Assembly (NCBI GenBank): GCA_015832175.1
Contig: WJXW01000019.1
Coordinates: forward strand, 533,068 to 597,067
DNA from: Paraphaeosphaeria minitans
Lineage: Eukaryota; Ascomycota; Dothideomycetes; Pleosporales; Didymosphaeriaceae
Reading direction: 5' to 3'
DNA length: 64,000 bases
The translations under genes and the position numbers were made by a program. Positions 44,508 to 64,000 of this stretch are shown here, piece after piece. Below the pieces are notes generated by a model. The model was not told where the DNA came from. It ran no database searches and saw nothing but the letters and a program-made list of their open reading frames with translations. The number at the start of each line of letters is the position of its first letter. Position 1 is the first letter of the stretch.

Positions 44508-45431
44508 ATTGTTTTCTTGTACAACAAATATTCATGCTAAATAAGAGCAGATCATACTCTCCTCCTGCGCCCTGTGCGTGCGGTCGCCGGATGTAGTGGG
44601 ATCGTCAGTCGAGGGTCGTCGGATCGCCGCGGAGAGGCAGGTTGTTGCTCAAAGCAGGTACGGCTTGGTTTGGAGCTCGCTTGTATCAAAAGAGTGCCCT
44701 GTTGAGCGTTTGGTATCGGAAACAGGGCTGCAAAGGCGTTGTAGAGGCAATATAGAGAGAATCAGCGCGTGCACACTGAATGGCTGGGGCTGTCGGCGCA
44801 ATGGGTACGAGATCGAAGGATTTGGGCTCGCTTCAAAGCGCGAAAGCAAGTGGCGTTCTCAACTAATCGGCCTAAACCCACCAACCGATATGCATCGACG
44901 ATGGCTTTGCGTCTGCAACATTTCCACGCGGCTGATTTGTCCAAATGTACCCCGGCTGTCCGTAAAGATGCCAAACACAATCGGTGATCGTTGACTTTGA
45001 TTGCTTCAGGACGCGTCGCGCGTCGTGCTCCACGGGCAGCCAGACCTGATGACCACAAATCGCCTCTCCAATTCCCCGCTCAGATACTTCAAATCATCGA
45101 CGCAGCCCCGTTGTGCTACAATCCAGACTGGTGGGTGGTGTTTCACTCGACAATGCACCCCGTCGAAGAGCTATGACGACGACAATACGTCGACACCACC
45201 GTCACATTTCACCACGAGCGCATGTCGGGCAAAACCCCCTCCGATAGGCCATAAGATGGCCTTATCTCTCCACGCCGGATATGATCACTGCCGCTGGGCC
45301 CTGAGGAGTCCCATCTTTGTTATAACTTGGTTTAATTGCTGGCTATTCGTCAGCTGAGGCTTGGCTAAGTTGGGTTGATTTTTGCCTATTTATATAACTT
45401 ACACAACTAGTTACGCTTCTTAGCCCGTTAA

Positions 45432-45688
45432 ATATGCCTGTCAGATAAGATGCTCGCATGCGATAAGGTATGATGAGGGGTGATGATTCTGTCTTGATTG
45501 ATGATGAATTCTATCTGGTTGTCAGATTTGATGCTTTAGATACGATACAGTATGTTGATGGGTGATGAATTCTATGTCCTGTGTCAACTCTGCTCGGTTG
45601 GTTTTGACCCCTGGGCTAGTGCGATAAGTGCTGTGGTCCTTCCTCCATTATGCAGATCCGAACTCAACGCACTCGTTCTATCCGACAG
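45432..45688 (+). repeat. Dispersed repeat, copy B
   Basis: Matches the reverse complement of 23974-24157. Internally the GTCAGAT...ATGCT...GATGGGTGATGAATTCTAT phrase is duplicated (about 45435 and 45522), so copy B carries an extra internal unit. Confidence 0.7.
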
Positions 45689-45750
45689 AAGCATTTTTAC
45701 AAGAAAAAAAAAATTCGCTGCTGTGCAACACCGTGCTTGGGCCGCTCGCC

Positions 45751-45805
45751 TTTTTTTTTTTTTTTTTAACTCAGCCACTTCAGCACAGCCATTTCAACTC
45801 AGCTT

Positions 45806-45839
<34 letters not shown>
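45751..45839. repeat. Simple repeats: poly-T and (TAC)n
   Basis: A T run of about 18 near 45751-45769 and about 11 TAC units at 45806-45839. Confidence 0.95.
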
Positions 45840-46007
45840 GAGCCCAAATTCATGAAGGACCTTGCCAATGTAAGCTTCTTGGCTTCAGACAAGTCTTTGT
45901 TTCGACAAATTCTCCGTGTGAACATGTCAAGGATGATAGCCGAATGGTCCTGTCAGATAAAATGCTTCCATGTGATAAGGTATGCTGATGGGTGATGATT
46001 GTGGATT

Positions 46008-46032
46008 GATGATGATGATGATGATGATGATG
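46008..46032 (+). repeat. Simple repeat (GAT)n
   Basis: About eight GAT units. Confidence 0.95.
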
Positions 46033-46450
46033 TCCATTTGGCTGTGCAGGGGTTTTCGCCCTATGTAGCCCCACTTCCAGCTAAGCCTATCATCTAGCCC
46101 TGTCTGTATTGGTCTCAAAACCTCGTTCCTCAGCCCATTCCTGTTGGACCTGTTAGTGAACCCCGTTGTGATTCTCCTGCCTGAGGACTACTATGTCTAT
46201 GCGCGGTTAATTCTCAGATGACGGATTTAGCCTCCCCGTTCTGCGTGCAAATTTGATGGTCGCGTAGACCACGTCTAGGTTAGGTTTCCACTGGTTAATG
46301 GGACCGTCCGGGCTGGAGCCGTCCGGGTTCGTGTGCGGTGATCTTCCACCGACCTTGTATGACAAGTCGCCATATCTGTCGCCCGCTTCTCTGATCATGT
46401 CCTATCCAAGAGGAAGAGGCGTCGGTGGTCACAGACGCGCTAAGATTGGC

Positions 46451-46474
46451 TTAGCGTTAGGGTTAGAGTTAACG
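46451..46474 (+). repeat. Four degenerate telomere hexamers, copy 1
   Basis: TTAGCG TTAGGG TTAGAG TTAACG in register, same strand as the terminal TTAGGG array. Each of the three variants differs from TTAGGG at one or two bases. Equivalent tracts lie at 52701-52724 and 57688-57711. Confidence 0.85.
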
Positions 46475-46619
46475 AATTAGGTAGGATTTGATACCAGAAA
46501 CGCGTTAGACTAGGGGCAGAAACAATCCTATTCCCCAGCTATTTCTATTTCTTTCTCATTCTAATTCATCTCAACGTAACCTCTTATACTAATCTACCAT
46601 CTCTTATTCACAAAATAGG

Positions 46620-46661
46620 ATGGTGGTGGCGCAGGGTTTAGCCATTACTTTTTACTACTAA
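46620..46661 (+). promoter_or_regulatory. Leader with in-frame short upstream ORF, copy 1
   Basis: A 13-codon frame (MVVAQGLAITFYY, TAA at 46659-46661) ends 6 bp before the main ATG and is in the same frame. The leader before it is pyrimidine-rich (CTCATTCTAATTCATCTC), typical around fungal transcription starts. A possible 43-bp intron (GTAACC...ACTAAT...AATAG) ends right at this ATG. All copies share it. It would be expected to reduce translation of the main frame. Confidence 0.5.
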
Positions 46662-46667
46662 TTCGCG

Positions 46668-49600
46668 ATGGAGTTCTGCTGGGACGCTCGAGCTTCCGCG
46701 TCAAGCCCAGCTAACAGAGTACTAACATCACCACATCAACAGAACTCTCAGCAGCAACAGCAACTAGCAGGAGAAAACTTAGCGCAAGCTAATATACAAA
46801 AGTATATTCATTTTGTTAAGGAGTACGGCGTGCTTTGCTGCAGCGAGCACAAAGCCGGCATAGAAAATCTCGATGTACATCTCCGTCAAAAGCATAGTGT
46901 ACCAGTTAACGAACGGAGGAAATTCATTGAAAGCTGCGCTCTTTTGAGAAGACAAGGGCTGGGCAGCGTTACGCTACCAGACGCTGGCGGACCGCCAATC
47001 CAGGTCCTAGGAGCGCCGTTGGACGGCTTCCAATGCAAGCAGCCAGCATGCAGCTATCTTACGCGAAACAAGGGCCAGATACGACTACACTGCAACAGTC
47101 ATGGGTTAGCGTTCAAGACGGGATCAGATGCGCTCTACCAGAAGGTAAAGATGCAGTCTTTCTTCCCCGCTTCAGGACGGCAGCGGTACTTTGTAGTTTG
47201 CGTCCCCGATGTAGCGGACAGCGGAGCAGACGCTAGGGCGCATAAAGAAGAGGTGGAAGACATTCTGGCAGAGTACGCGCGAACGCAGGAGGAGAGGAAG
47301 CGGCAAGAGCAGGTGATGGATGCAGAAGTCGCAAAGACAGACAAGACAGGCTGGTGGAAGTTTACAGAGTGGCCAGAGCACTTTGCGAACCGCAACTGCG
47401 TGCACCTTGCCCACGCGATCCGGCTGCCGCGCCGGGACGAGCCCAAGCTGCAGAAGGCCGCGCGGGCTGTGGAGCAGCTGGTGGAGCAGAGCGTCCGAGG
47501 GCTGTCCTCGCTACCACGTGAGACCCGACGATGGGTGAAGAGTGCGCAGGCCAACGAGATCCACCAGCAGCCGATAGCCCGACTGCAGAACCCAGAGAGC
47601 CAGGCGCGCTATGCTGGGTACATTGTGATGTTCGTGTGCTATGTCCTACGTATCGTCGCCGCCGAAGAAGCGGACAAGGAGAGCGAGGACACGGAGAGTA
47701 GCGAGGGCAGCAGCACCGACGACAGCAGCGACGGCGACGGCAGCAGCAGCGACTGCAGTGATGAGAGCCCGCCCGAGGCCCACACAGGTCGCCGAGTCAA
47801 AGTTGATCCCATGAAGGACGCGCGGGAGATGTTCCCATGGAAAGAGGACCAAAAGCTGCTGGCCACCATGCTCTGGGAGGCCCTGGACAGCAACGACGAA
47901 GCCGGCCACATCGTCCTAGTGCGCCGGATGCTTAGTACGTTCATCATGACGACCTACATCCGCAGTCCGTTTGAGAGCGGGCTCGTTCACTTTGCTGCTG
48001 TGCTTGGGTTCGATTCAGAGACACGTCGACTGCGCACCGCGAAGAACTATTCGTATCTAGTGGCTGGGATGGTGTACTGCGTTCGGGTGATCAGTGTCGA
48101 ACACCTACTTCCGCCCGCGCAACGGGAACAGCAGGGCTTGGTGGAACGTGACCACTATCTTGACCTGAGAAAGCGCTTCCTAGCGGACGGGTCCTTCAGC
48201 CCGACGAGCCAGCTGCTTAGTCTGCTGGCCTATGGCAAGTTCATCGGCATGAATACCGGCAACGCGGGCAACGCCTTCTGGTCAGAGGATAAGAAGATCT
48301 TCTACCTCAACGGTAGACCCATCGTTATACACCATTTCCAGCTGATGGCCCAAGAACTGTTGACCGAGCTGGAGGACCTGCTCTGGGGTGAGCTGCTCTG
48401 GGTCCGCAGTCCCGGTCAGCGTTTCCCGATCCGGCTCGACCTGATTCAGGACGATGTCGCGTGCACACGACGCGGCATGTCCTTTGTCACGCACGGGAAC
48501 AACGGCCTGGAGAATGGCTTGCGATGGATGCTCGAACGGATGATGCAGGACGAGCAGGGTCGGAAGCTCCGCTCCGGAGATGGGACTTGGAACGTTGCAC
48601 GCGTGAAGCTGTACCTGCGCAGTGTCAAGCGCTTCAAGGAGCTGGAGCTTGCCAATCTCCACATTGACGAGGGAATGCCAGGTCGGGGCACCGAGATCAC
48701 GTCGATGCGGTTCCGCAACGGAGCACTGCAGGACCGCAACCTCTTCGTGATGGACGGACAGATCATGACGGTGGTCCGTTACTACAAGTCGCAGTCGCAG
48801 TTCGACAAGCCCAAGGTCATCCCAAGGTTCCTGCCCTCGCGGCTCTCGCAGGTGCTCGTTGTGTACCTGGCGTACGTGCAGCCGTTCGAAGAGTACCTGA
48901 CCGTGGAGGTGCTGGGCGGCAGCTTCACCGACTACCTGTGGGCCAACGAGCAGGGTCCGTGGCACACGGATCACCTGACGCGGGTGCTGAAGCGCGAGAC
49001 GGGCAAGCACCTGGGGGTGGCGCTGAACACGCTCGACTACCGACACACGGCGGTGGGGATTGGGCGGGAGGTGGTTGGGGATGTGTTTGGGCGGGGTTAC
49101 CAAGACGAGGTGGGTGAGATTGAAGAGCCCGAGGTCGACGAGGACGGTGAGAGCCCGTTGGAGCTGCAGAGCGCGCGGACGACCAAGATCGGCCTGGCCA
49201 ACTACAGCGTGCCCATCGATATTGTGAAGCATCTCAGCATGCGTTCGATCGAGACCTTCCGGCCGCTCAGTCGGCGCTGGCACGAGTTTCTAGGTGTGGA
49301 TGGGCACGAGGTACGACCCAGTGCAGCCAGGAAGCGGCGATGGGAAGAAGAAGGAGACGGTCAAGACAAAGGGAGAGATGATCTCGCCGTGGTCGTGCCG
49401 CAGAAGAAAACCAAACCAGGGGGTGTCACTGCGAGTGCGATGTCTAGAGCGATGCAGCAGGCACTTGGCCAGGCTACTGCATCGTTCAAGTCGGACGAGC
49501 AGGAACAGGCCATGTTCGCTATGGTGAACGGTCAGACACCGCTGGTGGTCGTGCTCCCCACAGGTGGAGGCAAGAGTCTGCTGTTCATGGTGCCGGCCTG

Positions 49601-51089
49601 CCTCGACCATGCTGGCGTGACCGTGGTTGTGGTGCCGTTCCGCGCGCTGATCGAGGACCTGGCAACGCGTATCCGCGCGCGCGGTATCGACTGCGTGGAA
49701 TGGGTTAACCACGAGACGAACCCGGCCTCCGTCATGCTGGTTGGTGCTGATGTCGCCGGCGGCGCGGGGTTCCTGAAGTATGCCAGCTCGCTGAAGGATA
49801 AGAAGCAGCTGCAGCGGGTGGTGATTGACGAGTGCCATCTCATCATCACCTCCAGCCATTGGCGGCCGAAGCTGGCGAAGCTGCGGAATCTGCGCGTGCT
49901 TGCATGCCCGATCGTACTGCTGACGGCGACGCTACCGCCCGTGCTGGAGGGGGTGTTGGGTAGAAGCATGTTGATTCAAGCTGCCACCTACATCCGGGCC
50001 AGCACGGTGCGGCCCAACATCCGGTATTACGTGTCGTGGTGTGGGCGAGGTAAGGCCATGGAGGCAGCACTGGCCATGTGTCGACGGCGGCAGGAACAGC
50101 TGCGGGGTGGCCAGAAAGGCGTCATCTACTGCCACAGCAGGACTGCATGCGAAATGCTGGCAGGGGCGCTGGGCTGCAAGCACTACCACGCTGGCGAGTT
50201 GGATCGAACCGAGATCCTCGCCAGCTGGCTGGACGAAGGCGGGCTCATCGTGGCAACATCAGCGCTCGGTACTGGGGTTAACTTTCCCAGCATCGTGTTC
50301 GTCTTGCACGTAGGCATGCCATGGAGCATGATCGACTACTGCCAGGAGAGTGGGCGTGCGGGGCGTAGCGGCGAGGTGGCGGACTCGGTCATCATCGTCG
50401 AGCCAGGTGAGGTGGAGAGGCGAATCCGGGAGGGTGGAGCGTCGGTGGACGTGTGCGCGATGGGCATGTTCATCGAGAGCGAAGGCTGCCGGCGCGGGAA
50501 GATGAGCGAGTACATGGATGGGCAGCGGGTAGTGTGCAGTGACATGGACTCGGCTGGGTGCGATCGATGCGGTGAGGGCCGGATCGAGTGGCAGCAGGCC
50601 CAGTCGCTCGCGGCGAGTGAGTGGCAAGAGGTGGAGGCAAGCATGGACGAGCTGCGGGCCGGGTGTGCGATATGCTGGGTGCTGGGGCGGGCAGGCTGGC
50701 AAGAGCACAGAACGATGCTGTGCACGGCGCAGCCCATGATGATGGGGAGGGACATGGACGAGTTCCGGCGAGGGGTGCGCGACGCTGGGAACTGCCACAG
50801 CTGTCGAAGGTGCTGGGTGAGCCAGAAGTGGTGCGCGACAGGGCAGGACGTCGCGAACTCGTGCCAGTGGCCGAACATTGTGATTCCTGTGGCCAGGGCA
50901 GCAACGGGGATTGCGGATGGGCTTGAGATCATTCGGCAGTGCGGGTTCCAGGGCGAGTGCGAGGTTTCGTGCCAGGCGTACCAGGTATGGCTTGGACAGC
51001 GCCATTGTGAACGTATCTGGGGCGAATTTCTTAGTAATGCAATGGTAGTAGCTATAAGAGTTATTATAAAACTTAAAGAGAAGAATTAG
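46668..51089 (+). CDS. Telomere-linked RecQ-type helicase with tyrosine-recombinase-like domain, copy 1
   Basis: Intronless, 1473 aa. Residues 21-33 are Gln-rich. Two zinc-finger-like modules follow: C58/H61 with H71/H76, and C123-x4-C128-x12-H141-x3-H145, then MQSFFPASGRQRYFVV (DUF3505-like). An acidic Ser/Asp/Glu stretch covers 334-371. Residues about 400-880 look like a core-binding plus catalytic tyrosine recombinase: R673 in GRGTEI, candidate Lys at 707/714/716, YRHTAVGIGR at 791-800, R837 and Tyr846 in LANYSVP. The RecQ core is complete: Walker A LPTGGGKS (963-970), DECH (1054-1057), TATLP (1086-1090), GVIYCHSR (1151-1158), ATSALGTGVNFP (1196-1207), QESGRAGR (1226-1233). C1274, C1290, C1298 and C1301 match the RecQ zinc site. 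Helicase assignment is firm; the recombinase is inferred. It resembles fungal telomere-linked helicases, whose exact job is unresolved. Confidence 0.92.
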   Translation: MEFCWDARASASSPANRVLTSPHQQNSQQQQQLAGENLAQANIQKYIHFVKEYGVLCCSEHKAGIENLDVHLRQKHSVPVNERRKFIESCALLRRQGLGSVTLPDAGGPPIQVLGAPLDGFQCKQPACSYLTRNKGQIRLHCNSHGLAFKTGSDALYQKVKMQSFFPASGRQRYFVVCVPDVADSGADARAHKEEVEDILAEYARTQEERKRQEQVMDAEVAKTDKTGWWKFTEWPEHFANRNCVHLAHAIRLPRRDEPKLQKAARAVEQLVEQSVRGLSSLPRETRRWVKSAQANEIHQQPIARLQNPESQARYAGYIVMFVCYVLRIVAAEEADKESEDTESSEGSSTDDSSDGDGSSSDCSDESPPEAHTGRRVKVDPMKDAREMFPWKEDQKLLATMLWEALDSNDEAGHIVLVRRMLSTFIMTTYIRSPFESGLVHFAAVLGFDSETRRLRTAKNYSYLVAGMVYCVRVISVEHLLPPAQREQQGLVERDHYLDLRKRFLADGSFSPTSQLLSLLAYGKFIGMNTGNAGNAFWSEDKKIFYLNGRPIVIHHFQLMAQELLTELEDLLWGELLWVRSPGQRFPIRLDLIQDDVACTRRGMSFVTHGNNGLENGLRWMLERMMQDEQGRKLRSGDGTWNVARVKLYLRSVKRFKELELANLHIDEGMPGRGTEITSMRFRNGALQDRNLFVMDGQIMTVVRYYKSQSQFDKPKVIPRFLPSRLSQVLVVYLAYVQPFEEYLTVEVLGGSFTDYLWANEQGPWHTDHLTRVLKRETGKHLGVALNTLDYRHTAVGIGREVVGDVFGRGYQDEVGEIEEPEVDEDGESPLELQSARTTKIGLANYSVPIDIVKHLSMRSIETFRPLSRRWHEFLGVDGHEVRPSAARKRRWEEEGDGQDKGRDDLAVVVPQKKTKPGGVTASAMSRAMQQALGQATASFKSDEQEQAMFAMVNGQTPLVVVLPTGGGKSLLFMVPACLDHAGVTVVVVPFRALIEDLATRIRARGIDCVEWVNHETNPASVMLVGADVAGGAGFLKYASSLKDKKQLQRVVIDECHLIITSSHWRPKLAKLRNLRVLACPIVLLTATLPPVLEGVLGRSMLIQAATYIRASTVRPNIRYYVSWCGRGKAMEAALAMCRRRQEQLRGGQKGVIYCHSRTACEMLAGALGCKHYHAGELDRTEILASWLDEGGLIVATSALGTGVNFPSIVFVLHVGMPWSMIDYCQESGRAGRSGEVADSVIIVEPGEVERRIREGGASVDVCAMGMFIESEGCRRGKMSEYMDGQRVVCSDMDSAGCDRCGEGRIEWQQAQSLAASEWQEVEASMDELRAGCAICWVLGRAGWQEHRTMLCTAQPMMMGRDMDEFRRGVRDAGNCHSCRRCWVSQKWCATGQDVANSCQWPNIVIPVARAATGIADGLEIIRQCGFQGECEVSCQAYQVWLGQRHCERIWGEFLSNAMVVAIRVIIKLKEKN

Positions 51090-52541
51090 GCCTAGAATAT
51101 AGTACTTTACTTCTATTTTTTAAAAAATCTCACTTTGTACATATTATAGTAGAGTTAGCCTATCTATTATAGATTTTATTTTACTTTACTATATATTAGT
51201 ATAATAGGATGTAAGTTTTAGAAATTATAGAAAAAATAGAAACTAGAGTCTTCTAGAAGAGTTTAGGAATTGTATAAAATAAGTAAATTTCTAAAAACCT
51301 AAGTACTAGTATTGATACTATCTTATAACTTATTAGAATTTAATAAAATTATAATTAAACTATATTTCTACTTTTTTATAAACTTTACCACTAGTTATTA
51401 AATAGTAGTATACTTTTTTATATACTTATAATAATTTTTACTTATTTAGTAATCATAAGTTTTACTTTAAATAGTTTATACTAATAGTATTATATAACTA
51501 CTAGAGTGAAACTAAATTTAATTTTATATTAATAATTTATATTTCTATTAAAAAGAGAATATAAAAGAAATTATTAAAGTAGTAGTATTTATAAGTAGAA
51601 GTAGGACTTATAAATAATAAAACTAAATTACTAAACTATGTAGTAGATAATAAATAATTTCTAGTTATTATAAAATTAAGAAAAAAAAACTAAAGGGTTA
51701 TTTTTTATTAAAGGGAAAATATATATTTCTAAAGTTATAGAAAATATAAAGTAATATAACTTTTTAAAAAGTAATATAAGGTAAAGTTATTAACTATTCT
51801 ATACAGGTATATAAGGTCGTGTTAAGTTATATAAAAGGATATAAATTATTATAAAGGGACATAAAGCTATATAAAGTAATATGTAGTAAAGTTATTAAAT
51901 ATTTTATAAAGTTATATAAGGTTGTATTAAGTTATATAAAGGGATATAAATTATTATAAAGTAATATAAAGGTATATAAAGTAATATAAAGTAAAGTTAT
52001 ATAAGGTTGTATTAAGTTATATAAAGTGATATAAATTACTATAAAGCTATATAAAGTGATATATGGTAAAGTTATTAGATATTTAATAAAGTTATATAAA
52101 GTGATATAAATTGTAATAAAGTAATATAAAGCTATATAATACTATATAACTTTCTATAAAATAGTATAAGGTACAGTTATTAAATATTTTATAAAGGTTT
52201 ATAAAGTAGTGTTAAGTTGTATAAAGTGATATAAAGTAACATAACTTTCTATAAAGGGATGTAAGGTGAAGTTATTAAATGTTATATAAAGTGGTATAAA
52301 GCTATATAAAGTAAAATAAAGTTATGTAGAGTAATATAGGATGGACTTATTAAATGTTGTTTAAAGTTATTAGTTATACTATAAAACAAACTTAGTAAGG
52401 AGAGAAGAATAAGCTTCTTATTATAAAACTTTATATAGTAGAGAAAAGTTAGGACTTTTTTAGAAAAGAGATATAATATTATAACTAGATAAGGAGTATA
52501 CTAATATAAGTTAAAGGGAGTTAAAGTAGGGAAAAATCTTG
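51090..52541 (+). repeat. AT-rich tail with degenerate short repeats, copy 1
   Basis: About 1.45 kb, very AT-rich, in sharp contrast to the GC-rich gene. From about 51720 it is built from variants of TTATATAAAGTGATATAAAG. On the plus strand G clearly outnumbers C (in sampled lines roughly four to one). No coding capacity. Confidence 0.9.
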
Positions 52542-52650
52542 AGGTAGAATAGGAAACCCGTTTATAAGTGTATAGGAGAGGTAGGATAGGAAACCCGTTC
52601 GTGAGTGCAAGGGAGAGGTGGGGTGGGTGGGCCCGTCGGGATGGGAAGAA
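52542..52650 (+). repeat. Two 37-bp direct repeats and G-rich end, copy 1
   Basis: Two imperfect 37-bp repeats (52542-52578, 52579-52615; AGGTAGRATAGGAAACCCGT...) are followed by G runs at 52620-52645: GGGG T GGG T GGG (6 nt) GGG, which fits a G-quadruplex pattern. The unit ends GGGAAGAA, directly before CC of copy 2. Confidence 0.8.
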
Positions 52651-52917
52651 CCTACCCAAGAGGAAGAGGCGTCGGTGGTCACAGACGCGCTAAGATTGGC
52701 TTAGCGTTAGGGTTAGAGTTAACGAATTAGGTAGGATTTGATACCAGAAACGCGTTAGACTAGGGGCAGAAACAATCCTATTCCCCAGCTATTTCTATTT
52801 CTTTCTCATTCTAATTCATCTCAACGTAACCTCTTATACTAATCTACCATCTCTTATTCACAAAATAGGATGGTGGTGGCGCAGGGTTTAGCCATTACTT
52901 TTTACTACTAATTCGCG

Positions 52918-55900
52918 ATGGAGTTCTGCTGGGACGCTCGAGCTTCCGCGTCAAGCCCAGCTAACAGAGTACTAACATCACCACATCAACAGAACTCTCA
53001 GCAGCAACAGCAACTAGCAGGAGAAAACTTAGCGCAAGCTAATATACAAAAGTATATTCATTTTGTTAAGGAGTACGGCGTGCTTTGCTGCAGCGAGCAC
53101 AAAGCCGGCATAGAAAATCTCGATGTACATCTCCGTCAAAAGCATAGTGTACCAGTTAACGAACGGAGGAAATTCATTGAAAGCTGCGCTCTTTTGAGAA
53201 GACAAGGGCTGGGCAGCGTTACGCTACCAGACGCTGGCGGACCGCCAATCCAGGTCCTAGGAGCGCCGTTGGACGGCTTCCAATGCAAGCAGCCAGCATG
53301 CAGCTATCTTACGCGAAACAAGGGCCAGATACGACTACACTGCAACAGTCATGGGTTAGCGTTCAAGACGGGATCAGATGCGCTCTACCAGAAGGTAAAG
53401 ATGCAGTCTTTCTTCCCCGCTTCAGGACGGCAGCGGTACTTTGTAGTTTGCGTCCCCGATGTAGCGGACAGCGGAGCAGACGCTAGGGCGCATAAAGAAG
53501 AGGTGGAAGACATTCTGGCAGAGTACGCGCGAACGCAGGAGGAGAGGAAGCGGCAAGAGCAGGTGATGGATGCAGAAGTCGCAAAGACAGACAAGACAGG
53601 CTGGTGGAAGTTTACAGAGTGGCCAGAGCACTTTGCGAACCGCAACTGCGTGCACCTTGCCCACGCGATCCGGCTGCCGCGCCGGGACGAGCCCAAGCTG
53701 CAGAAGGCCGCGCGGGCTGTGGAGCAGCTGGTGGAGCAGAGCGTCCGAGGGCTGTCCTCGCTACCACGTGAGACCCGACGATGGGTGAAGAGTGCGCAGG
53801 CCAACGAGATCCACCAGCAGCCGATAGCCCGACTGCAGAACCCAGAGAGCCAGGCGCGCTATGCTGGGTACATTGTGATGTTCGTGTGCTATGTCCTACG
53901 TATCGTCGCCGCCGAAGAAGCGGACAAGGAGAGCGAGGACACGGAGAGTAGCGAGGGCAGCAGCACCGACGACAGCAGCGACGGCGACGGCAGCAGCAGC
54001 GACTGCAGTGATGAGAGCCCGCCCGAGGCCCACACAGGTCGCCGAGTCAAAGTTGATCCCATGAAGGACGCGCGGGAGATGTTCCCATGGAAAGAGGACC
54101 AAAAGCTGCTGGCCACCATGCTCTGGGAGGCCCTGGACAGCAACGACGAAGCCGGCCACATCGTCCTAGTGCGCCGGATGCTTAGTACGTTCATCATGAC
54201 GACCTACATCCGCAGTCCGTTTGAGAGCGGGCTCGTTCACTTTGCTGCTGTGCTTGGGTTCGATTCAGAGACACGTCGACTGCGCACCGCGAAGAACTAT
54301 TCGTATCTAGTGGCTGGGATGGTGTACTGCGTTCGGGTGATCAGTGTCGAACACCTACTTCCGCCCGCGCAACGGGAACAGCAGGGCTTGGTGGAACGTG
54401 ACCACTATCTTGACCTGAGAAAGCGCTTCCTAGCGGACGGGTCCTTCAGCCCGACGAGCCAGCTGCTTAGTCTGCTGGCCTATGGCAAGTTCATCGGCAT
54501 GAATACCGGCAACGCGGGCAACGCCTTCTGGTCAGAGGATAAGAAGATCTTCTACCTCAACGGTAGACCCATCGTTATACACCATTTCCAGCTGATGGCC
54601 CAAGAACTGTTGACCGAGCTGGAGGACCTGCTCTGGGGTGAGCTGCTCTGGGTCCGCAGTCCCGGTCAGCGTTTCCCGATCCGGCTCGACCTGATTCAGG
54701 ACGATGTCGCGTGCACACGACGCGGCATGTCCTTTGTCACGCACGGGAACAACGGCCTGGAGAATGGCTTGCGATGGATGCTCGAACGGATGATGCAGGA
54801 CGAGCAGGGTCGGAAGCTCCGCTCCGGAGATGGGACTTGGAACGTTGCACGCGTGAAGCTGTACCTGCGCAGTGTCAAGCGCTTCAAGGAGCTGGAGCTT
54901 GCCAATCTCCACATTGACGAGGGAATGCCAGGTCGGGGCACCGAGATCACGTCGATGCGGTTCCGCAACGGAGCACTGCAGGACCGCAACCTCTTCGTGA
55001 TGGACGGACAGATCATGACGGTGGTCCGTTACTACAAGTCGCAGTCGCAGTTCGACAAGCCCAAGGTCATCCCAAGGTTCCTGCCCTCGCGGCTCTCGCA
55101 GGTGCTCGTTGTGTACCTGGCGTACGTGCAGCCGTTCGAAGAGTACCTGACCGTGGAGGTGCTGGGCGGCAGCTTCACCGACTACCTGTGGGCCAACGAG
55201 CAGGGTCCGTGGCACACGGATCACCTGACGCGGGTGCTGAAGCGCGAGACGGGCAAGCACCTGGGGGTGGCGCTGAACACGCTCGACTACCGACACACGG
55301 CGGTGGGGATTGGGCGGGAGGTGGTTGGGGATGTGTTTGGGCGGGGTTACCAAGACGAGGTGGGTGAGATTGAAGAGCCCGAGGTCGACGAGGACGGTGA
55401 GAGCCCGTTGGAGCTGCAGAGCGCGCGGACGACCAAGATCGGCCTGGCCAACTACAGCGTGCCCATCGATATTGTGAAGCATCTCAGCATGCGTTCGATC
55501 GAGACCTTCCGGCCGCTCAGTCGGCGCTGGCACGAGTTTCTAGGTGTGGATGGGCACGAGGTACGACCCAGTGCAGCCAGGAAGCGGCGATGGGAAGAAG
55601 AAGGAGACGGTCAAGACAAAGGGAGAGATGATCTCGCCGTGGTCGTGCCGCAGAAGAAAACCAAACCAGGGGGTGTCACTGCGAGTGCGATGTCTAGAGC
55701 GATGCAGCAGGCACTTGGCCAGGCTACTGCATCGTTCAAGTCGGACGAGCAGGAACAGGCCATGTTCGCTATGGTGAACGGTCAGACACCGCTGGTGGTC
55801 GTGCTCCCCACAGGTGGAGGCAAGAGTCTGCTGTTCATGGTGCCGGCCTGCCTCGACCATGCTGGCGTGACCGTGGTTGTGGTGCCGTTCCGCGCGCTGA

Positions 55901-57339
55901 TCGAGGACCTGGCAACGCGTATCCGCGCGCGCGGTATCGACTGCGTGGAATGGGTTAACCACGAGACGAACCCGGCCTCCGTCATGCTGGTTGGTGCTGA
56001 TGTCGCCGGCGGCGCGGGGTTCCTGAAGTATGCCAGCTCGCTGAAGGATAAGAAGCAGCTGCAGCGGGTGGTGATTGACGAGTGCCATCTCATCATCACC
56101 TCCAGCCATTGGCGGCCGAAGCTGGCGAAGCTGCGGAATCTGCGCGTGCTTGCATGCCCGATCGTACTGCTGACGGCGACGCTACCGCCCGTGCTGGAGG
56201 GGGTGTTGGGTAGAAGCATGTTGATTCAAGCTGCCACCTACATCCGGGCCAGCACGGTGCGGCCCAACATCCGGTATTACGTGTCGTGGTGTGGGCGAGG
56301 TAAGGCCATGGAGGCAGCACTGGCCATGTGTCGACGGCGGCAGGAACAGCTGCGGGGTGGCCAGAAAGGCGTCATCTACTGCCACAGCAGGACTGCATGC
56401 GAAATGCTGGCAGGGGCGCTGGGCTGCAAGCACTACCACGCTGGCGAGTTGGATCGAACCGAGATCCTCGCCAGCTGGCTGGACGAAGGCGGGCTCATCG
56501 TGGCAACATCAGCGCTCGGTACTGGGGTTAACTTTCCCAGCATCGTGTTCGTCTTGCACGTAGGCATGCCATGGAGCATGATCGACTACTGCCAGGAGAG
56601 TGGGCGTGCGGGGCGTAGCGGCGAGGTGGCGGACTCGGTCATCATCGTCGAGCCAGGTGAGGTGGAGAGGCGAATCCGGGAGGGTGGAGCGTCGGTGGAC
56701 GTGTGCGCGATGGGCATGTTCATCGAGAGCGAAGGCTGCCGGCGCGGGAAGATGAGCGAGTACATGGATGGGCAGCGGGTAGTGTGCAGTGACATGGACT
56801 CGGCTGGGTGCGATCGATGCGGTGAGGGCCGGATCGAGTGGCAGCAGGCCCAGTCGCTCGCGGCGAGTGAGTGGCAAGAGGTGGAGGCAAGCATGGACGA
56901 GCTGCGGGCCGGGTGTGCGATATGCTGGGTGCTGGGGCGGGCAGGCTGGCAAGAGCACAGAACGATGCTGTGCACGGCGCAGCCCATGATGATGGGGAGG
57001 GACATGGACGAGTTCCGGCGAGGGGTGCGCGACGCTGGGAACTGCCACAGCTGTCGAAGGTGCTGGGTGAGCCAGAAGTGGTGCGCGACAGGGCAGGACG
57101 TCGCGAACTCGTGCCAGTGGCCGAACATTGTGATTCCTGTGGCCAGGGCAGCAACGGGGATTGCGGATGGGCTTGAGATCATTCGGCAGTGCGGGTTCCA
57201 GGGCGAGTGCGAGGTTTCGTGCCAGGCGTACCAGGTATGGCTTGGACAGCGCCATTGTGAACGTATCTGGGGCGAATTTCTTAGTAATGCAATGGTAGTA
57301 GCTATAAGAGTTATTATAAAACTTAAAGAGAAGAATTAG
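52918..57339 (+). CDS. Telomere-linked RecQ-type helicase with tyrosine-recombinase-like domain, copy 2
   Basis: Predicted protein identical over all 1473 residues to the copy at 46668-51089, with the same leader, short upstream ORF (52870-52911) and telomere hexamers (52701-52724). I saw no nucleotide difference in the coding part. Its downstream AT-rich region is only about 300 bp, so its 3' end signals may differ from the other copies. All helicase motifs and candidate recombinase residues are retained. Confidence 0.92.
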   Translation: MEFCWDARASASSPANRVLTSPHQQNSQQQQQLAGENLAQANIQKYIHFVKEYGVLCCSEHKAGIENLDVHLRQKHSVPVNERRKFIESCALLRRQGLGSVTLPDAGGPPIQVLGAPLDGFQCKQPACSYLTRNKGQIRLHCNSHGLAFKTGSDALYQKVKMQSFFPASGRQRYFVVCVPDVADSGADARAHKEEVEDILAEYARTQEERKRQEQVMDAEVAKTDKTGWWKFTEWPEHFANRNCVHLAHAIRLPRRDEPKLQKAARAVEQLVEQSVRGLSSLPRETRRWVKSAQANEIHQQPIARLQNPESQARYAGYIVMFVCYVLRIVAAEEADKESEDTESSEGSSTDDSSDGDGSSSDCSDESPPEAHTGRRVKVDPMKDAREMFPWKEDQKLLATMLWEALDSNDEAGHIVLVRRMLSTFIMTTYIRSPFESGLVHFAAVLGFDSETRRLRTAKNYSYLVAGMVYCVRVISVEHLLPPAQREQQGLVERDHYLDLRKRFLADGSFSPTSQLLSLLAYGKFIGMNTGNAGNAFWSEDKKIFYLNGRPIVIHHFQLMAQELLTELEDLLWGELLWVRSPGQRFPIRLDLIQDDVACTRRGMSFVTHGNNGLENGLRWMLERMMQDEQGRKLRSGDGTWNVARVKLYLRSVKRFKELELANLHIDEGMPGRGTEITSMRFRNGALQDRNLFVMDGQIMTVVRYYKSQSQFDKPKVIPRFLPSRLSQVLVVYLAYVQPFEEYLTVEVLGGSFTDYLWANEQGPWHTDHLTRVLKRETGKHLGVALNTLDYRHTAVGIGREVVGDVFGRGYQDEVGEIEEPEVDEDGESPLELQSARTTKIGLANYSVPIDIVKHLSMRSIETFRPLSRRWHEFLGVDGHEVRPSAARKRRWEEEGDGQDKGRDDLAVVVPQKKTKPGGVTASAMSRAMQQALGQATASFKSDEQEQAMFAMVNGQTPLVVVLPTGGGKSLLFMVPACLDHAGVTVVVVPFRALIEDLATRIRARGIDCVEWVNHETNPASVMLVGADVAGGAGFLKYASSLKDKKQLQRVVIDECHLIITSSHWRPKLAKLRNLRVLACPIVLLTATLPPVLEGVLGRSMLIQAATYIRASTVRPNIRYYVSWCGRGKAMEAALAMCRRRQEQLRGGQKGVIYCHSRTACEMLAGALGCKHYHAGELDRTEILASWLDEGGLIVATSALGTGVNFPSIVFVLHVGMPWSMIDYCQESGRAGRSGEVADSVIIVEPGEVERRIREGGASVDVCAMGMFIESEGCRRGKMSEYMDGQRVVCSDMDSAGCDRCGEGRIEWQQAQSLAASEWQEVEASMDELRAGCAICWVLGRAGWQEHRTMLCTAQPMMMGRDMDEFRRGVRDAGNCHSCRRCWVSQKWCATGQDVANSCQWPNIVIPVARAATGIADGLEIIRQCGFQGECEVSCQAYQVWLGQRHCERIWGEFLSNAMVVAIRVIIKLKEKN

Positions 57340-57637
57340 GCCTAGAATATAGTACTTTACTTCTATTTTTTAAAAAATCTCACTTTGTACATATTATAGT
57401 AGAGTTAGCCTATCTATTATAGATTTTATTTTACTTTACTATATATTAGTATAATAGGATGTAAGTTTTAGAAATTATAGAAAAAATAGAAACTAGAGTC
57501 TTCTAGAAGAGTTTAGGAATTGTATAAAATAAGTAAATTTCTAAAAACCTAAGTACTAGTATTGATACTATCTTATAACTTATTAGAATTTAATAAAATT
57601 ATAATTAAACTATATTTCTACTTTTTTATAAACTTTA
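57340..57637 (+). repeat. Truncated AT-rich tail, copy 2
   Basis: Corresponds to 51090-51387 of copy 1, then breaks off at AAACTTTA before CCTATCC of copy 3. The satellite-like part is absent. Confidence 0.88.
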
Positions 57638-57904
57638 CCTATCCAAGAGGAAGAGGCGTCGGTGGTCACAGACGCGCTAAGATTGGCTTAGCGTTAGGGT
57701 TAGAGTTAACGAATTAGGTAGGATTTGATACCAGAAACGCGTTAGACTAGGGGCAGAAACAATCCTATTCCCCAGCTATTTCTATTTCTTTCTCATTCTA
57801 ATTCATCTCAACGTAACCTCTTATACTAATCTACCATCTCTTATTCACAAAATAGGATGGTGGTGGCGCAGGGTTTAGCCATTACTTTTTACTACTAATT
57901 CGCG

Positions 57905-60900
57905 ATGGAGTTCTGCTGGGACGCTCGAGCTTCCGCGTCAAGCCCAGCTAACAGAGTACTAACATCACCACATCAACAGAACTCTCAGCAGCAACAGCAA
58001 CTAGCAGGAGAAAACTTAGCGCAAGCTAATATACAAAAGTATATTCATTTTGTTAAGGAGTACGGCGTGCTTTGCTGCAGCGAGCACAAAGCCGGCATAG
58101 AAAATCTCGATGTACATCTCCGTCAAAAGCATAGTGTACCAGTTAACGAACGGAGGAAATTCATTGAAAGCTGCGCTCTTTTGAGAAGACAAGGGCTGGG
58201 CAGCGTTACGCTACCAGACGCTGGCGGACCGCCAATCCAGGTCCTAGGAGCGCCGTTGGACGGCTTCCAATGCAAGCAGCCAGCATGCAGCTATCTTACG
58301 CGAAACAAGGGCCAGATACGACTACACTGCAACAGTCATGGGTTAGCGTTCAAGACGGGATCAGATGCGCTCTACCAGAAGGTAAAGATGCAGTCTTTCT
58401 TCCCCGCTTCAGGACGGCAGCGGTACTTTGTAGTTTGCGTCCCCGATGTAGCGGACAGCGGAGCAGACGCTAGGGCGCATAAAGAAGAGGTGGAAGACAT
58501 TCTGGCAGAGTACGCGCGAACGCAGGAGGAGAGGAAGCGGCAAGAGCAGGTGATGGATGCAGAAGTCGCAAAGACAGACAAGACAGGCTGGTGGAAGTTT
58601 ACAGAGTGGCCAGAGCACTTTGCGAACCGCAACTGCGTGCACCTTGCCCACGCGATCCGGCTGCCGCGCCGGGACGAGCCCAAGCTGCAGAAGGCCGCGC
58701 GGGCTGTGGAGCAGCTGGTGGAGCAGAGCGTCCGAGGGCTGTCCTCGCTACCACGTGAGACCCGACGATGGGTGAAGAGTGCGCAGGCCAACGAGATCCA
58801 CCAGCAGCCGATAGCCCGACTGCAGAACCCAGAGAGCCAGGCGCGCTATGCTGGGTACATTGTGATGTTCGTGTGCTATGTCCTACGTATCGTCGCCGCC
58901 GAAGAAGCGGACAAGGAGAGCGAGGACACGGAGAGTAGCGAGGGCAGCAGCACCGACGACAGCAGCGACGGCGACGGCAGCAGCAGCGACTGCAGTGATG
59001 AGAGCCCGCCCGAGGCCCACACAGGTCGCCGAGTCAAAGTTGATCCCATGAAGGACGCGCGGGAGATGTTCCCATGGAAAGAGGACCAAAAGCTGCTGGC
59101 CACCATGCTCTGGGAGGCCCTGGACAGCAACGACGAAGCCGGCCACATCGTCCTAGTGCGCCGGATGCTTAGTACGTTCATCATGACGACCTACATCCGC
59201 AGTCCGTTTGAGAGCGGGCTCGTTCACTTTGCTGCTGTGCTTGGGTTCGATTCAGAGACACGTCGACTGCGCACCGCGAAGAACTATTCGTATCTAGTGG
59301 CTGGGATGGTGTACTGCGTTCGGGTGATCAGTGTCGAACACCTACTTCCGCCCGCGCAACGGGAACAGCAGGGCTTGGTGGAACGTGACCACTATCTTGA
59401 CCTGAGAAAGCGCTTCCTAGCGGACGGGTCCTTCAGCCCGACGAGCCAGCTGCTTAGTCTGCTGGCCTATGGCAAGTTCATCGGCATGAATACCGGCAAC
59501 GCGGGCAACGCCTTCTGGTCAGAGGATAAGAAGATCTTCTACCTCAACGGTAGACCCATCGTTATACACCATTTCCAGCTGATGGCCCAAGAACTGTTGA
59601 CCGAGCTGGAGGACCTGCTCTGGGGTGAGCTGCTCTGGGTCCGCAGTCCCGGTCAGCGTTTCCCGATCCGGCTCGACCTGATTCAGGACGATGTCGCGTG
59701 CACACGACGCGGCATGTCCTTTGTCACGCACGGGAACAACGGCCTGGAGAATGGCTTGCGATGGATGCTCGAACGGATGATGCAGGACGAGCAGGGTCGG
59801 AAGCTCCGCTCCGGAGATGGGACTTGGAACGTTGCACGCGTGAAGCTGTACCTGCGCAGTGTCAAGCGCTTCAAGGAGCTGGAGCTTGCCAATCTCCACA
59901 TTGACGAGGGAATGCCAGGTCGGGGCACCGAGATCACGTCGATGCGGTTCCGCAACGGAGCACTGCAGGACCGCAACCTCTTCGTGATGGACGGACAGAT
60001 CATGACGGTGGTCCGTTACTACAAGTCGCAGTCGCAGTTCGACAAGCCCAAGGTCATCCCAAGGTTCCTGCCCTCGCGGCTCTCGCAGGTGCTCGTTGTG
60101 TACCTGGCGTACGTGCAGCCGTTCGAAGAGTACCTGACCGTGGAGGTGCTGGGCGGCAGCTTCACCGACTACCTGTGGGCCAACGAGCAGGGTCCGTGGC
60201 ACACGGATCACCTGACGCGGGTGCTGAAGCGCGAGACGGGCAAGCACCTGGGGGTGGCGCTGAACACGCTCGACTACCGACACACGGCGGTGGGGATTGG
60301 GCGGGAGGTGGTTGGGGATGTGTTTGGGCGGGGTTACCAAGACGAGGTGGGTGAGATTGAAGAGCCCGAGGTCGACGAGGACGGTGAGAGCCCGTTGGAG
60401 CTGCAGAGCGCGCGGACGACCAAGATCGGCCTGGCCAACTACAGCGTGCCCATCGATATTGTGAAGCATCTCAGCATGCGTTCGATCGAGACCTTCCGGC
60501 CGCTCAGTCGGCGCTGGCACGAGTTTCTAGGTGTGGATGGGCACGAGGTACGACCCAGTGCAGCCAGGAAGCGGCGATGGGAAGAAGAAGGAGACGGTCA
60601 AGACAAAGGGAGAGATGATCTCGCCGTGGTCGTGCCGCAGAAGAAAACCAAACCAGGGGGTGTCACTGCGAGTGCGATGTCTAGAGCGATGCAGCAGGCA
60701 CTTGGCCAGGCTACTGCATCGTTCAAGTCGGACGAGCAGGAACAGGCCATGTTCGCTATGGTGAACGGTCAGACACCGCTGGTGGTCGTGCTCCCCACAG
60801 GTGGAGGCAAGAGTCTGCTGTTCATGGTGCCGGCCTGCCTCGACCATGCTGGCGTGACCGTGGTTGTGGTGCCGTTCCGCGCGCTGATCGAGGACCTGGC

Positions 60901-62326
60901 AACGCGTATCCGCGCGCGCGGTATCGACTGCGTGGAATGGGTTAACCACGAGACGAACCCGGCCTCCGTCATGCTGGTTGGTGCTGATGTCGCCGGCGGC
61001 GCGGGGTTCCTGAAGTATGCCAGCTCGCTGAAGGATAAGAAGCAGCTGCAGCGGGTGGTGATTGACGAGTGCCATCTCATCATCACCTCCAGCCATTGGC
61101 GGCCGAAGCTGGCGAAGCTGCGGAATCTGCGCGTGCTTGCATGCCCGATCGTACTGCTGACGGCGACGCTACCGCCCGTGCTGGAGGGGGTGTTGGGTAG
61201 AAGCATGTTGATTCAAGCTGCCACCTACATCCGGGCCAGCACGGTGCGGCCCAACATCCGGTATTACGTGTCGTGGTGTGGGCGAGGTAAGGCCATGGAG
61301 GCAGCACTGGCCATGTGTCGACGGCGGCAGGAACAGCTGCGGGGTGGCCAGAAAGGCGTCATCTACTGCCACAGCAGGACTGCATGCGAAATGCTGGCAG
61401 GGGCGCTGGGCTGCAAGCACTACCACGCTGGCGAGTTGGATCGAACCGAGATCCTCGCCAGCTGGCTGGACGAAGGCGGGCTCATCGTGGCAACATCAGC
61501 GCTCGGTACTGGGGTTAACTTTCCCAGCATCGTGTTCGTCTTGCACGTAGGCATGCCATGGAGCATGATCGACTACTGCCAGGAGAGTGGGCGTGCGGGG
61601 CGTAGCGGCGAGGTGGCGGACTCGGTCATCATCGTCGAGCCAGGTGAGGTGGAGAGGCGAATCCGGGAGGGTGGAGCGTCGGTGGACGTGTGCGCGATGG
61701 GCATGTTCATCGAGAGCGAAGGCTGCCGGCGCGGGAAGATGAGCGAGTACATGGATGGGCAGCGGGTAGTGTGCAGTGACATGGACTCGGCTGGGTGCGA
61801 TCGATGCGGTGAGGGCCGGATCGAGTGGCAGCAGGCCCAGTCGCTCGCGGCGAGTGAGTGGCAAGAGGTGGAGGCAAGCATGGACGAGCTGCGGGCCGGG
61901 TGTGCGATATGCTGGGTGCTGGGGCGGGCAGGCTGGCAAGAGCACAGAACGATGCTGTGCACGGCGCAGCCCATGATGATGGGGAGGGACATGGACGAGT
62001 TCCGGCGAGGGGTGCGCGACGCTGGGAACTGCCACAGCTGTCGAAGGTGCTGGGTGAGCCAGAAGTGGTGCGCGACAGGGCAGGACGTCGCGAACTCGTG
62101 CCAGTGGCCGAACATTGTGATTCCTGTGGCCAGGGCAGCAACGGGGATTGCGGATGGGCTTGAGATCATTCGGCAGTGCGGGTTCCAGGGCGAGTGCGAG
62201 GTTTCGTGCCAGGCGTACCAGGTATGGCTTGGACAGCGCCATTGTGAACGTATCTGGGGCGAATTTCTTAGTAATGCAATGGTAGTAGCTATAAGAGTTA
62301 TTATAAAACTTAAAGAGAAGAATTAG
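57905..62326 (+). CDS. Telomere-linked RecQ-type helicase with tyrosine-recombinase-like domain, copy 3
   Basis: Predicted protein identical over 1473 residues to copies 1 and 2. It is transcribed toward the telomere, with its stop about 1.55 kb from the first telomere repeat. The leader repeats the short upstream ORF (57857-57898) and telomere hexamers (57688-57711). Being nearest the end, it is the copy most exposed to telomere silencing and to loss by end erosion. Confidence 0.92.
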   Translation: MEFCWDARASASSPANRVLTSPHQQNSQQQQQLAGENLAQANIQKYIHFVKEYGVLCCSEHKAGIENLDVHLRQKHSVPVNERRKFIESCALLRRQGLGSVTLPDAGGPPIQVLGAPLDGFQCKQPACSYLTRNKGQIRLHCNSHGLAFKTGSDALYQKVKMQSFFPASGRQRYFVVCVPDVADSGADARAHKEEVEDILAEYARTQEERKRQEQVMDAEVAKTDKTGWWKFTEWPEHFANRNCVHLAHAIRLPRRDEPKLQKAARAVEQLVEQSVRGLSSLPRETRRWVKSAQANEIHQQPIARLQNPESQARYAGYIVMFVCYVLRIVAAEEADKESEDTESSEGSSTDDSSDGDGSSSDCSDESPPEAHTGRRVKVDPMKDAREMFPWKEDQKLLATMLWEALDSNDEAGHIVLVRRMLSTFIMTTYIRSPFESGLVHFAAVLGFDSETRRLRTAKNYSYLVAGMVYCVRVISVEHLLPPAQREQQGLVERDHYLDLRKRFLADGSFSPTSQLLSLLAYGKFIGMNTGNAGNAFWSEDKKIFYLNGRPIVIHHFQLMAQELLTELEDLLWGELLWVRSPGQRFPIRLDLIQDDVACTRRGMSFVTHGNNGLENGLRWMLERMMQDEQGRKLRSGDGTWNVARVKLYLRSVKRFKELELANLHIDEGMPGRGTEITSMRFRNGALQDRNLFVMDGQIMTVVRYYKSQSQFDKPKVIPRFLPSRLSQVLVVYLAYVQPFEEYLTVEVLGGSFTDYLWANEQGPWHTDHLTRVLKRETGKHLGVALNTLDYRHTAVGIGREVVGDVFGRGYQDEVGEIEEPEVDEDGESPLELQSARTTKIGLANYSVPIDIVKHLSMRSIETFRPLSRRWHEFLGVDGHEVRPSAARKRRWEEEGDGQDKGRDDLAVVVPQKKTKPGGVTASAMSRAMQQALGQATASFKSDEQEQAMFAMVNGQTPLVVVLPTGGGKSLLFMVPACLDHAGVTVVVVPFRALIEDLATRIRARGIDCVEWVNHETNPASVMLVGADVAGGAGFLKYASSLKDKKQLQRVVIDECHLIITSSHWRPKLAKLRNLRVLACPIVLLTATLPPVLEGVLGRSMLIQAATYIRASTVRPNIRYYVSWCGRGKAMEAALAMCRRRQEQLRGGQKGVIYCHSRTACEMLAGALGCKHYHAGELDRTEILASWLDEGGLIVATSALGTGVNFPSIVFVLHVGMPWSMIDYCQESGRAGRSGEVADSVIIVEPGEVERRIREGGASVDVCAMGMFIESEGCRRGKMSEYMDGQRVVCSDMDSAGCDRCGEGRIEWQQAQSLAASEWQEVEASMDELRAGCAICWVLGRAGWQEHRTMLCTAQPMMMGRDMDEFRRGVRDAGNCHSCRRCWVSQKWCATGQDVANSCQWPNIVIPVARAATGIADGLEIIRQCGFQGECEVSCQAYQVWLGQRHCERIWGEFLSNAMVVAIRVIIKLKEKN

Positions 62327-63778
62327 GCCTAGAATATAGTACTTTACTTCTATTTTTTAAAAAATCTCACTTTGTACATATTATAGTAGAGTTAGCCTAT
62401 CTATTATAGATTTTATTTTACTTTACTATATATTAGTATAATAGGATGTAAGTTTTAGAAATTATAGAAAAAATAGAAACTAGAGTCTTCTAGAAGAGTT
62501 TAGGAATTGTATAAAATAAGTAAATTTCTAAAAACCTAAGTACTAGTATTGATACTATCTTATAACTTATTAGAATTTAATAAAATTATAATTAAACTAT
62601 ATTTCTACTTTTTTATAAACTTTACCACTAGTTATTAAATAGTAGTATACTTTTTTATATACTTATAATAATTTTTACTTATTTAGTAATCATAAGTTTT
62701 ACTTTAAATAGTTTATACTAATAGTATTATATAACTACTAGAGTGAAACTAAATTTAATTTTATATTAATAATTTATATTTCTATTAAAAAGAGAATATA
62801 AAAGAAATTATTAAAGTAGTAGTATTTATAAGTAGAAGTAGGACTTATAAATAATAAAACTAAATTACTAAACTATGTAGTAGATAATAAATAATTTCTA
62901 GTTATTATAAAATTAAGAAAAAAAAACTAAAGGGTTATTTTTTATTAAAGGGAAAATATATATTTCTAAAGTTATAGAAAATATAAAGTAATATAACTTT
63001 TTAAAAAGTAATATAAGGTAAAGTTATTAACTATTCTATACAGGTATATAAGGTCGTGTTAAGTTATATAAAAGGATATAAATTATTATAAAGGGACATA
63101 AAGCTATATAAAGTAATATGTAGTAAAGTAAAGTTATATAAGGTTGTATTAAGTTATATAAAGGGATATAAATTATTATAAAGTAATATAAAGGTATATA
63201 AAGTAATATAAAGTAAAGTTATATAAGGTTGTATTAAGTTATATAAAGTGATATAAATTACTATAAAGCTATATAAAGTGATATATGGTAAAGTTATTAG
63301 ATATTTAATAAAGTTATATAAAGTGATATAAATTGTAATAAAGTAATATAAAGCTATATAATACTATATAACTTTCTATAAAATAGTATAAGGTACAGTT
63401 ATTAAATATTTTATAAAGGTTTATAAAGTAGTGTTAAGTTGTATAAAGTGATATAAAGTAACATAACTTTCTATAAAGGGATGTAAGGTGAAGTTATTAA
63501 ATGTTATATAAAGTGGTATAAAGCTATATAAAGTAAAATAAAGTTATGTAGAGTAATATAGGATGGACTTATTAAATGTTGTTTAAAGTTATTAGTTATA
63601 CTATAAAACAAACTTAGTAAGGAGAGAAGAATAAGCTTCTTATTATAAAACTTTATATAGTAGAGAAAAGTTAGGACTTTTTTAGAAAAGAGATATAATA
63701 TTATAACTAGATAAGGAGTATACTAATATAAGTTAAAGGGAGTTAAAGTAGGGAAAAATCTTGAGGTAGAATAGGAAA
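62327..63778 (+). repeat. AT-rich tail, copy 3
   Basis: Same as 51090-52541 apart from a 15-bp deletion in the short-repeat part, where copy 1 has TTATTAAATATTTTA between two GTAAAG/AAAG motifs. Slippage between short repeats explains it. Confidence 0.88.
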
Positions 63779-63841
63779 CCCGTTTATAAGTGTATAGGAG
63801 AGGTAGGATAGGAAACCCGTTCGTGAGTGCAAGGGAGAGGT

Positions 63842-63867
63842 GGGGTGGGTGGGCCCGTCGGGATGGG
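63842..63867 (+). promoter_or_regulatory. G-rich, quadruplex-prone segment beside the telomere
   Basis: GGGG T GGG T GGG CCCGTC GGG AT GGG fits the G3+N1-7 pattern. The G-rich strand is the same strand as TTAGGG. Fold is predicted from sequence only. Confidence 0.5.
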
Positions 63868-63883
63868 AAGAACCGCTGGTGCG

Positions 63884-64000
63884 TAGGGTTAGGGTTAGGG
63901 TTAGGGTTAGGGTTAGGGTTAGGGTTAGGGTTAGGGTTAGGGTTAGGGTTAGGGTTAGGGTTAGGGTTAGGGTTAGGGTTAGGGTTAGGGTTAGGGTTAG
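63884..64000 (+). repeat. Telomere, (TTAGGG)n
   Basis: About 19.5 uninterrupted TTAGGG units running to the window end. Uniform repeats and orientation (G-rich strand 3' outward) show a natural chromosome end. The real length may be greater than shown. Confidence 0.99.

Follow-up and report, generated by a model that had tools for sequence, protein, structure and literature searches.

How does a RecQ-type helicase gene come to stand beside the telomere in near-identical copies, and what does the rest of its protein do there? This question is raised by a tandem array that runs into the telomere repeats of a 64,000-nucleotide stretch of Paraphaeosphaeria minitans (WJXW01000019.1, positions 533,068 to 597,067; hereafter the window), which belongs to contig C19 in a 47.45-Mb assembly of 30 contigs. 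Fungal telomere-linked helicases (TLHs) have been described since 1998 (reference in PMC10532341, available in part), and their function is still described as unclear in the accessible part of a paper from 2024 (PMC11893274). The first-pass annotation had read the gene of the array as a tyrosine recombinase (YR) fused to zinc modules and a RecQ motor, in one protein able to cut, rejoin and unwind chromosome ends. We found that the repeat carrying this gene has a precise end at the DNA level, which is evidence added to that earlier sequence-only reading. We favor, at a probability of roughly 0.55, the hypothesis of a terminal mobile element, in which the recombinase encoded by the repeat would join the inner end of the repeat to a target, with the telomere as the outer end.

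Inner End and Target Sites of the Proposed Element

Self-comparison of the window placed the starts of three tandem copies, all on the + strand, at 46401, 52651 and 57638. The inner (left) end of copy 1 (46401..46480), delimited by the self-comparison boundary, genome-wide junctions and a single-strand DNA fold, starts with CCTATCCAAGAGG. It is followed by an uninterrupted open reading frame (ORF) of 1473 amino acids (aa) (46668..51089) and by an AT-rich tail (51090..52650), which reaches GAAGAA ahead of the next copy. Copy 2 (52651..57637; ORF 52918-57339) has a tail shortened after AAACTTTA, and copy 3 (57638..63883; ORF 57905-62326), with a full tail, is terminal, bordering the telomere repeats (TAGGGT)19.5 that continue to the window end (63884..64000).

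Immediately within the inner end lies a 26-base tag, which occurred 63 times with at most two mismatches, 46 times exactly, as compared to no occurrence of the reversed control pattern. The six bases ahead of the tag were CCTATC at 33 sites, CCTACC at 27, and ACTACC, CCTATT and ACTATC at one each; CTA was present at all 63 left ends, and CC preceded TA at 61 of them. These sites form 49 distinct 60-base strings. At the fifth base of CCTAYCC, 35 left ends have T and 28 have C, despite the otherwise near identity of the terminal copies; this base is perhaps derived from the target.

Junction sequences were obtained 71 times, some sites being read twice through overlapping loci. In 35 of them, the flank matched another copy as far as the junction itself. 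The remaining 36 formed 25 similarity clusters, and in at least two of these (L019 and L049) pieces resembling the element stand further upstream. Across the clusters, CTA was found in 25/25, CC before TA in 24/25, and the next base outward was mixed. At the ten joins inside other copies where the empty site was readable, the target had CC in eight cases, a single C in one and neither in one. The frequency of CC is 0.65% in the tail and 3.4% in the flanks, giving binomial chances of 1e-16 and 8e-11, respectively, in a set where two sites are one base apart and one lies within the GC-rich ORF. The inner end of the element is base-precise, with CC at most readable targets.

The first 80 bases of the element contain three consecutive predicted hairpins (fold z -3.28 on the + strand and -3.31 on the - strand), one of which has the arms CGCTAAG/CTTAGCG. 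The fold of the outer end was unremarkable (z 0.4 and -0.8), and Rfam gave no family at threshold in 44000-64000.

Copies at Chromosome Ends and in the Interior

The last 525 bases of the terminal tail recurred, each time with a printed identity of 100%, at 33 places. For 30 of these the distance to a contig end is about 125 bases or less; the remaining places are on C12, C29 and C30. All of the 32 ORF copies scored, out of 188 candidates, were full length, stop-free and printed as 100% identical (one scoring 1.8 bits lower). A search with the OrsD domain gave 43 equal-score matches close to contig ends, and 38 of these lie in a frame of 1475 codons. Since the terminal copies are nearly identical, they are recent or continually renewed. 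Contigs C12, C22, C27 and C30 have a tail or OrsD match without the left tag; at the positions inspected, C22 and C27 have N and are uninformative. C29 shares its array flank with C19 and has an equal-scoring OrsD match, and may be a duplicate or an alternative assembly of the C19 end.

Relative to the terminal copy, the interior copies on C1 and C18 have identities of about 80% and 79%, respectively. They carry 522 and 533 C-to-T changes and 604 and 613 G-to-A changes, mostly at CpA, CpG and their complements, as compared to 29 and 20 other changes, a pattern that we take to be the mark of repeat-induced point mutation (RIP). After each of the two comes a further copy whose inner join is of the same type. 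Neither the recurring tail ends nor the interior copy on C10 revealed a second precise end. A circular insertion with two ends was considered and rejected, as no precise right end was seen and one interior copy ends raggedly.

One alternative explanation for this distribution is that the YR domain is real and is not the mover, being left over from an older transposon or having another role. Yeast Y' elements involve break-induced replication or ectopic recombination between chromosome ends, and the present copies may have spread in the same way. Such homogenization would yield essentially identical end copies, some in tandem arrays, and would suit the flanks that lie inside another copy in about half of the junctions (35/71); the RIP damage in both interior copies examined likewise implies that something keeps the end copies fresh. 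Homologous recombination alone would account for the identity and the arrays, but it offers no reason for a constant inner boundary in 25 unrelated flank clusters. The catalytic residues preserved across 183 aligned proteins (see below) also speak against it, and we consider this explanation unlikely, though the best of the alternatives.

Elsewhere in the window, a separate OrsD ORF of about 250 aa (20275-21030, - strand; E 2.1e-12), in which no helicase domain was found, is one among several OrsD matches outside the telomeric set. A Frequency clock protein ORF (41545-44220, - strand; PF09421, E 6e-116) lies about 2.2 kb from the inner end of the array. Further away are a DDE_1 transposase-like ORF (31653-33047, - strand; PF03184, E 6.2e-25) and tandem repeats of about 99 bases (6744-7807, - strand) overlapping an ankyrin-repeat ORF (6808-8310).

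Domain Organization and Predicted Fold of the Protein

The zinc and helicase parts named in the first-pass annotation were recovered by Pfam in the same ORF, which ends in a Cys-containing C-terminus. The OrsD domain (PF12013, E 3.6e-9), a zinc-finger region, occupies residues 48-145 (46809..47102), and the helicase core, residues 944-1235 (49497..50372), comprises DEAD (944-1092) and Helicase_C (1146-1235). This core matched RecQ, RECQ5 and BLM in the PDB (best E 7.7e-34) and TIGR00614 of NCBIfam with an E of 1.6e-45, yet under the cut-off of that family. With a RecQ-type superfamily 2 core and copies beside telomere repeats, the protein is a telomere-linked RecQ helicase.

Between these parts, predicted structures matched tyrosine recombinases by Foldseek and VIA, as the first-pass annotation had anticipated. 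The catalytic domain, residues 534-890 (48267..49337), delimited by the predicted model, Foldseek, VIA and conservation, was modeled with a predicted local distance difference test score (pLDDT) of 84.6 and a predicted template modeling score (pTM) of 0.84 (model m1b4a64eb1c94). Two predictions gave the same fold group; they are not independent, because they drew on overlapping sets of homologs, and the Foldseek E-values and template modeling scores of the match are weak. Residues 381-533 (47808..48266) are helical in the other model, m281d8c0c385c, and stand in the position of a core-binding domain, in agreement with the helices proposed there; VIA matches cover part of this region, as does the one to XerH, with a model range of 56-435. 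Xer and Cre were better structural matches than the phage regulators MrpR, YopR and SroF.

The residues singled out beforehand, R673, Y791-R792-H793, R837 and Y846, were found where they had been placed. In the models, R673 (codon 48684-48686) precedes a three-strand sheet, K707 (48786-48788) is close to the sheet, and R792-H793 (49041-49046) lies in a later helix; R837 and Y846 are encoded at 49176-49178 and 49203-49205. By sequence and secondary-structure position, R673, K707, R792 and Y846 would serve as Arg-I, beta-hairpin Lys, Arg-II and the Tyr nucleophile. Against the strict YR signature R-K-H-R-[H/W]-Y, the protein has Leu789 at the His of HxxR, and Arg837 at the His/Trp-III position nine residues before the Tyr. 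Its predicted models contain the catalytic-domain fold of the tyrosine recombinase/type IB topoisomerase superfamily, and we file it as a putative divergent member of that superfamily, a non-canonical YR.

Sequence searches of PDB, Pfam, PHROGs and NCBIfam detected no recombinase in the middle region. The sole Pfam match fully contained in residues 380-880 at E up to 10 was Zf-Nsp1alpha (463-488; E 0.0059, 16.5 bits against a cut-off of 27). Phage_integrase (PF00589) matched neither this protein, nor four relatives, nor the six-frame genome. In hhalign, the family profile (101 of 172 rows used) gave E-values of 0.17-0.78 against Cre, lambda Int, XerD, XerC and partial HP1 Int singly, no better than 13 control sequences (0.046-0.95), and 0.71 against a joint profile of the five. 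Helitron and retroelement assignments were dropped, as Pfam found no Helitron domain and no reverse transcriptase domain in the protein.

Conservation of the Proposed Catalytic Residues

Three homolog searches, the best 120 of 201, 154 and 227 hits being taken from each and the distant tail lying outside the sample, provided 183 homologous proteins. One of them (P0121, 2767 aa) was left out, and 182 were aligned with the query. Sources named among the matches listed include Pyrenophora, Didymella, Aureobasidium, Venturia and Friedmanniomyces, presumably all Dothideomycetes, as well as Watsoniomyces and Claviceps; PMIN01_12628 of P. minitans is also among them. No protein named from Magnaporthe, Ustilago, Schizosaccharomyces or Fusarium was among the best 120 of any search.

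The expected invariance was nearly complete: Y846 and R800 were present in 183/183 proteins, R792 and H793 in 182/183 each, R673 in 182/182 (one gap), K707 and E676 in 181/182 each, and R837 in 181/183, the other two having His, the residue whose replacement by Arg had been pointed out. Residue 789 was L in 120, H in 44, M in 8, Q in 5, R in 5 and N in 1, so that the HxxRH box is complete in 44/183. In an earlier set of 172 proteins, K707 lies 34 positions after R673 in 171, and Y846 lies 9 after R837 in all 172. A Walker A motif was found in 166/183; the 17 proteins lacking it, perhaps through truncation or misprediction, are short models of 842-1115 aa with a single exception of 1581 aa.

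These data bear on three further explanations. A YR fold domesticated for DNA binding alone, as in MrpR, YopR and SroF, might anchor the helicase at chromosome ends. This is improbable: hardly any protein departs from the arginines, the lysine or the tyrosine, mere binding leaves the tyrosine unaccounted for, and the matches to those regulators were weaker than those to Xer and Cre. Still less probable is an enzyme like type IB topoisomerases or protelomerases, which would relax or resolve telomeric DNA without strand exchange: it shares the fold superfamily, but Xer and Cre match better, the matches enter the preceding helical region, the recombinase-type His occurs in 44/183 proteins, and the window terminates in ordinary TTAGGG repeats. 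That the fold match is a model artefact, as the silent sequence searches, weak structural scores and shared homologs might suggest, is scarcely credible, since the residues picked before modeling proved to be the conserved ones, both predictions gave one fold group, and R673, K707 and R792-H793 are placed as expected around the sheet and later helix. The tyrosine-recombinase reading of the middle region is thus supported, on predicted structure and conservation, with cutting and rejoining as its putative activity; neither of the two outcomes that the first-pass annotation had named as refuting it, a lack of structural match or of conservation, was observed.

Proposed Mechanism

We propose that one protein, with OrsD zinc fingers for DNA binding, a YR domain and a RecQ motor, moves the terminal element. 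The YR domain would recognize the hairpin-rich inner end, CTAYCCAAGAGG, and Tyr846 would connect this end to a target containing CC where a chromosome end is broken or unwound; there, a 3'-phosphotyrosyl link at the target CC would be attacked by the 5' end of the element. The RecQ motor may supply single strands, and hairpins together with RecQ would provide a folded single-stranded substrate, as is used in integrons. With the telomere itself as outer end, a single junction would suffice, and the target would gain the element along with its telomere. Tandem copies, their older tails cut at CC, would arise when such events recur.

The interior copy on C10 breaks off inside the tail, with other DNA beyond it, and the C18 copy is directed away from the nearer contig end, so not all copies fit a simple terminal history. 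For the recombinase reading, the first-pass annotation had named the Leu three residues before Arg792 as its weak point; this copy does have the Leu, but His occupies the position in 44 of the 183 proteins.

More tentatively, and at rather less than an even chance, the element may represent a new eukaryotic class, a terminal YR transposon that uses one site-specific junction, between its inner end and CC, and the chromosome telomere, with RecQ feeding folded single strands into an integron-like one-strand exchange, to colonize and re-cap ends; fungal TLHs would be the motors of such elements. A conserved recombinase-fold domain and a base-precise inner end offer a testable mechanism for TLH spread and recombination-based end maintenance, in which fused cutting-and-rejoining and unwinding domains could account for the spread of such telomere genes. 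If true, this would join eukaryotic chromosome-end biology to site-specific recombinases.

Comparison with Known Systems

Xer and Cre share the predicted fold and the R, K, R and Y positions with the present protein, which differs in Leu at His-II, Arg at His/Trp-III, and an acidic insert between Arg792 and Arg837 that sets these 45 residues apart, as compared to about 23 in Cre; no sequence-level similarity was found. Cryptons and Starship captains, which belong to fungal YR DNA transposons (DUF3435/GCR1_C), are comparable in that a eukaryotic YR is encoded near one element end, pointing inward, with a short target requirement. In contrast, this protein has no match to the DUF3435 profile PF11917 (E up to 10), and its putative YR domain is fused to RecQ and OrsD; DUF3435 matches exist elsewhere in the same genome. 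The present element lies mostly at chromosome ends with the telomere as its outer end, its single located precise end being the inner one, with CC at most targets.

The TLHs of Magnaporthe, Ustilago (UTASa), Metarhizium, Fusarium and S. pombe (tlh) are likewise multicopy RecQ-type helicases directly beside the telomere, and OrsD is mentioned for UTASb in the available part of PMC10532341. They were compared from descriptions, in the accessible parts of which no tyrosine recombinase is reported for them. In such parts, "recombinase" is absent from PMC12857005, PMC8381367 and PMC7473861 and occurs once in PMC4522978, in a reference title on Cryptons; "tyrosine recombinase" is absent from PMC10532341, and PMC11893274 has "telomere-linked helicase" without it. 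In the literature covered, mostly outside subscription journals, the two terms never occurred together, and we found no report placing a tyrosine recombinase in a TLH. Lastly, MoTeR and FoTeR retrotransposons are also telomere-associated mobile elements with fixed orientation, and FoTeRs often co-occur with TLHs (PMC12857005, seen in part). In place of a reverse transcriptase domain, of which none was found here, the present element carries a recombinase-fold domain and a helicase.
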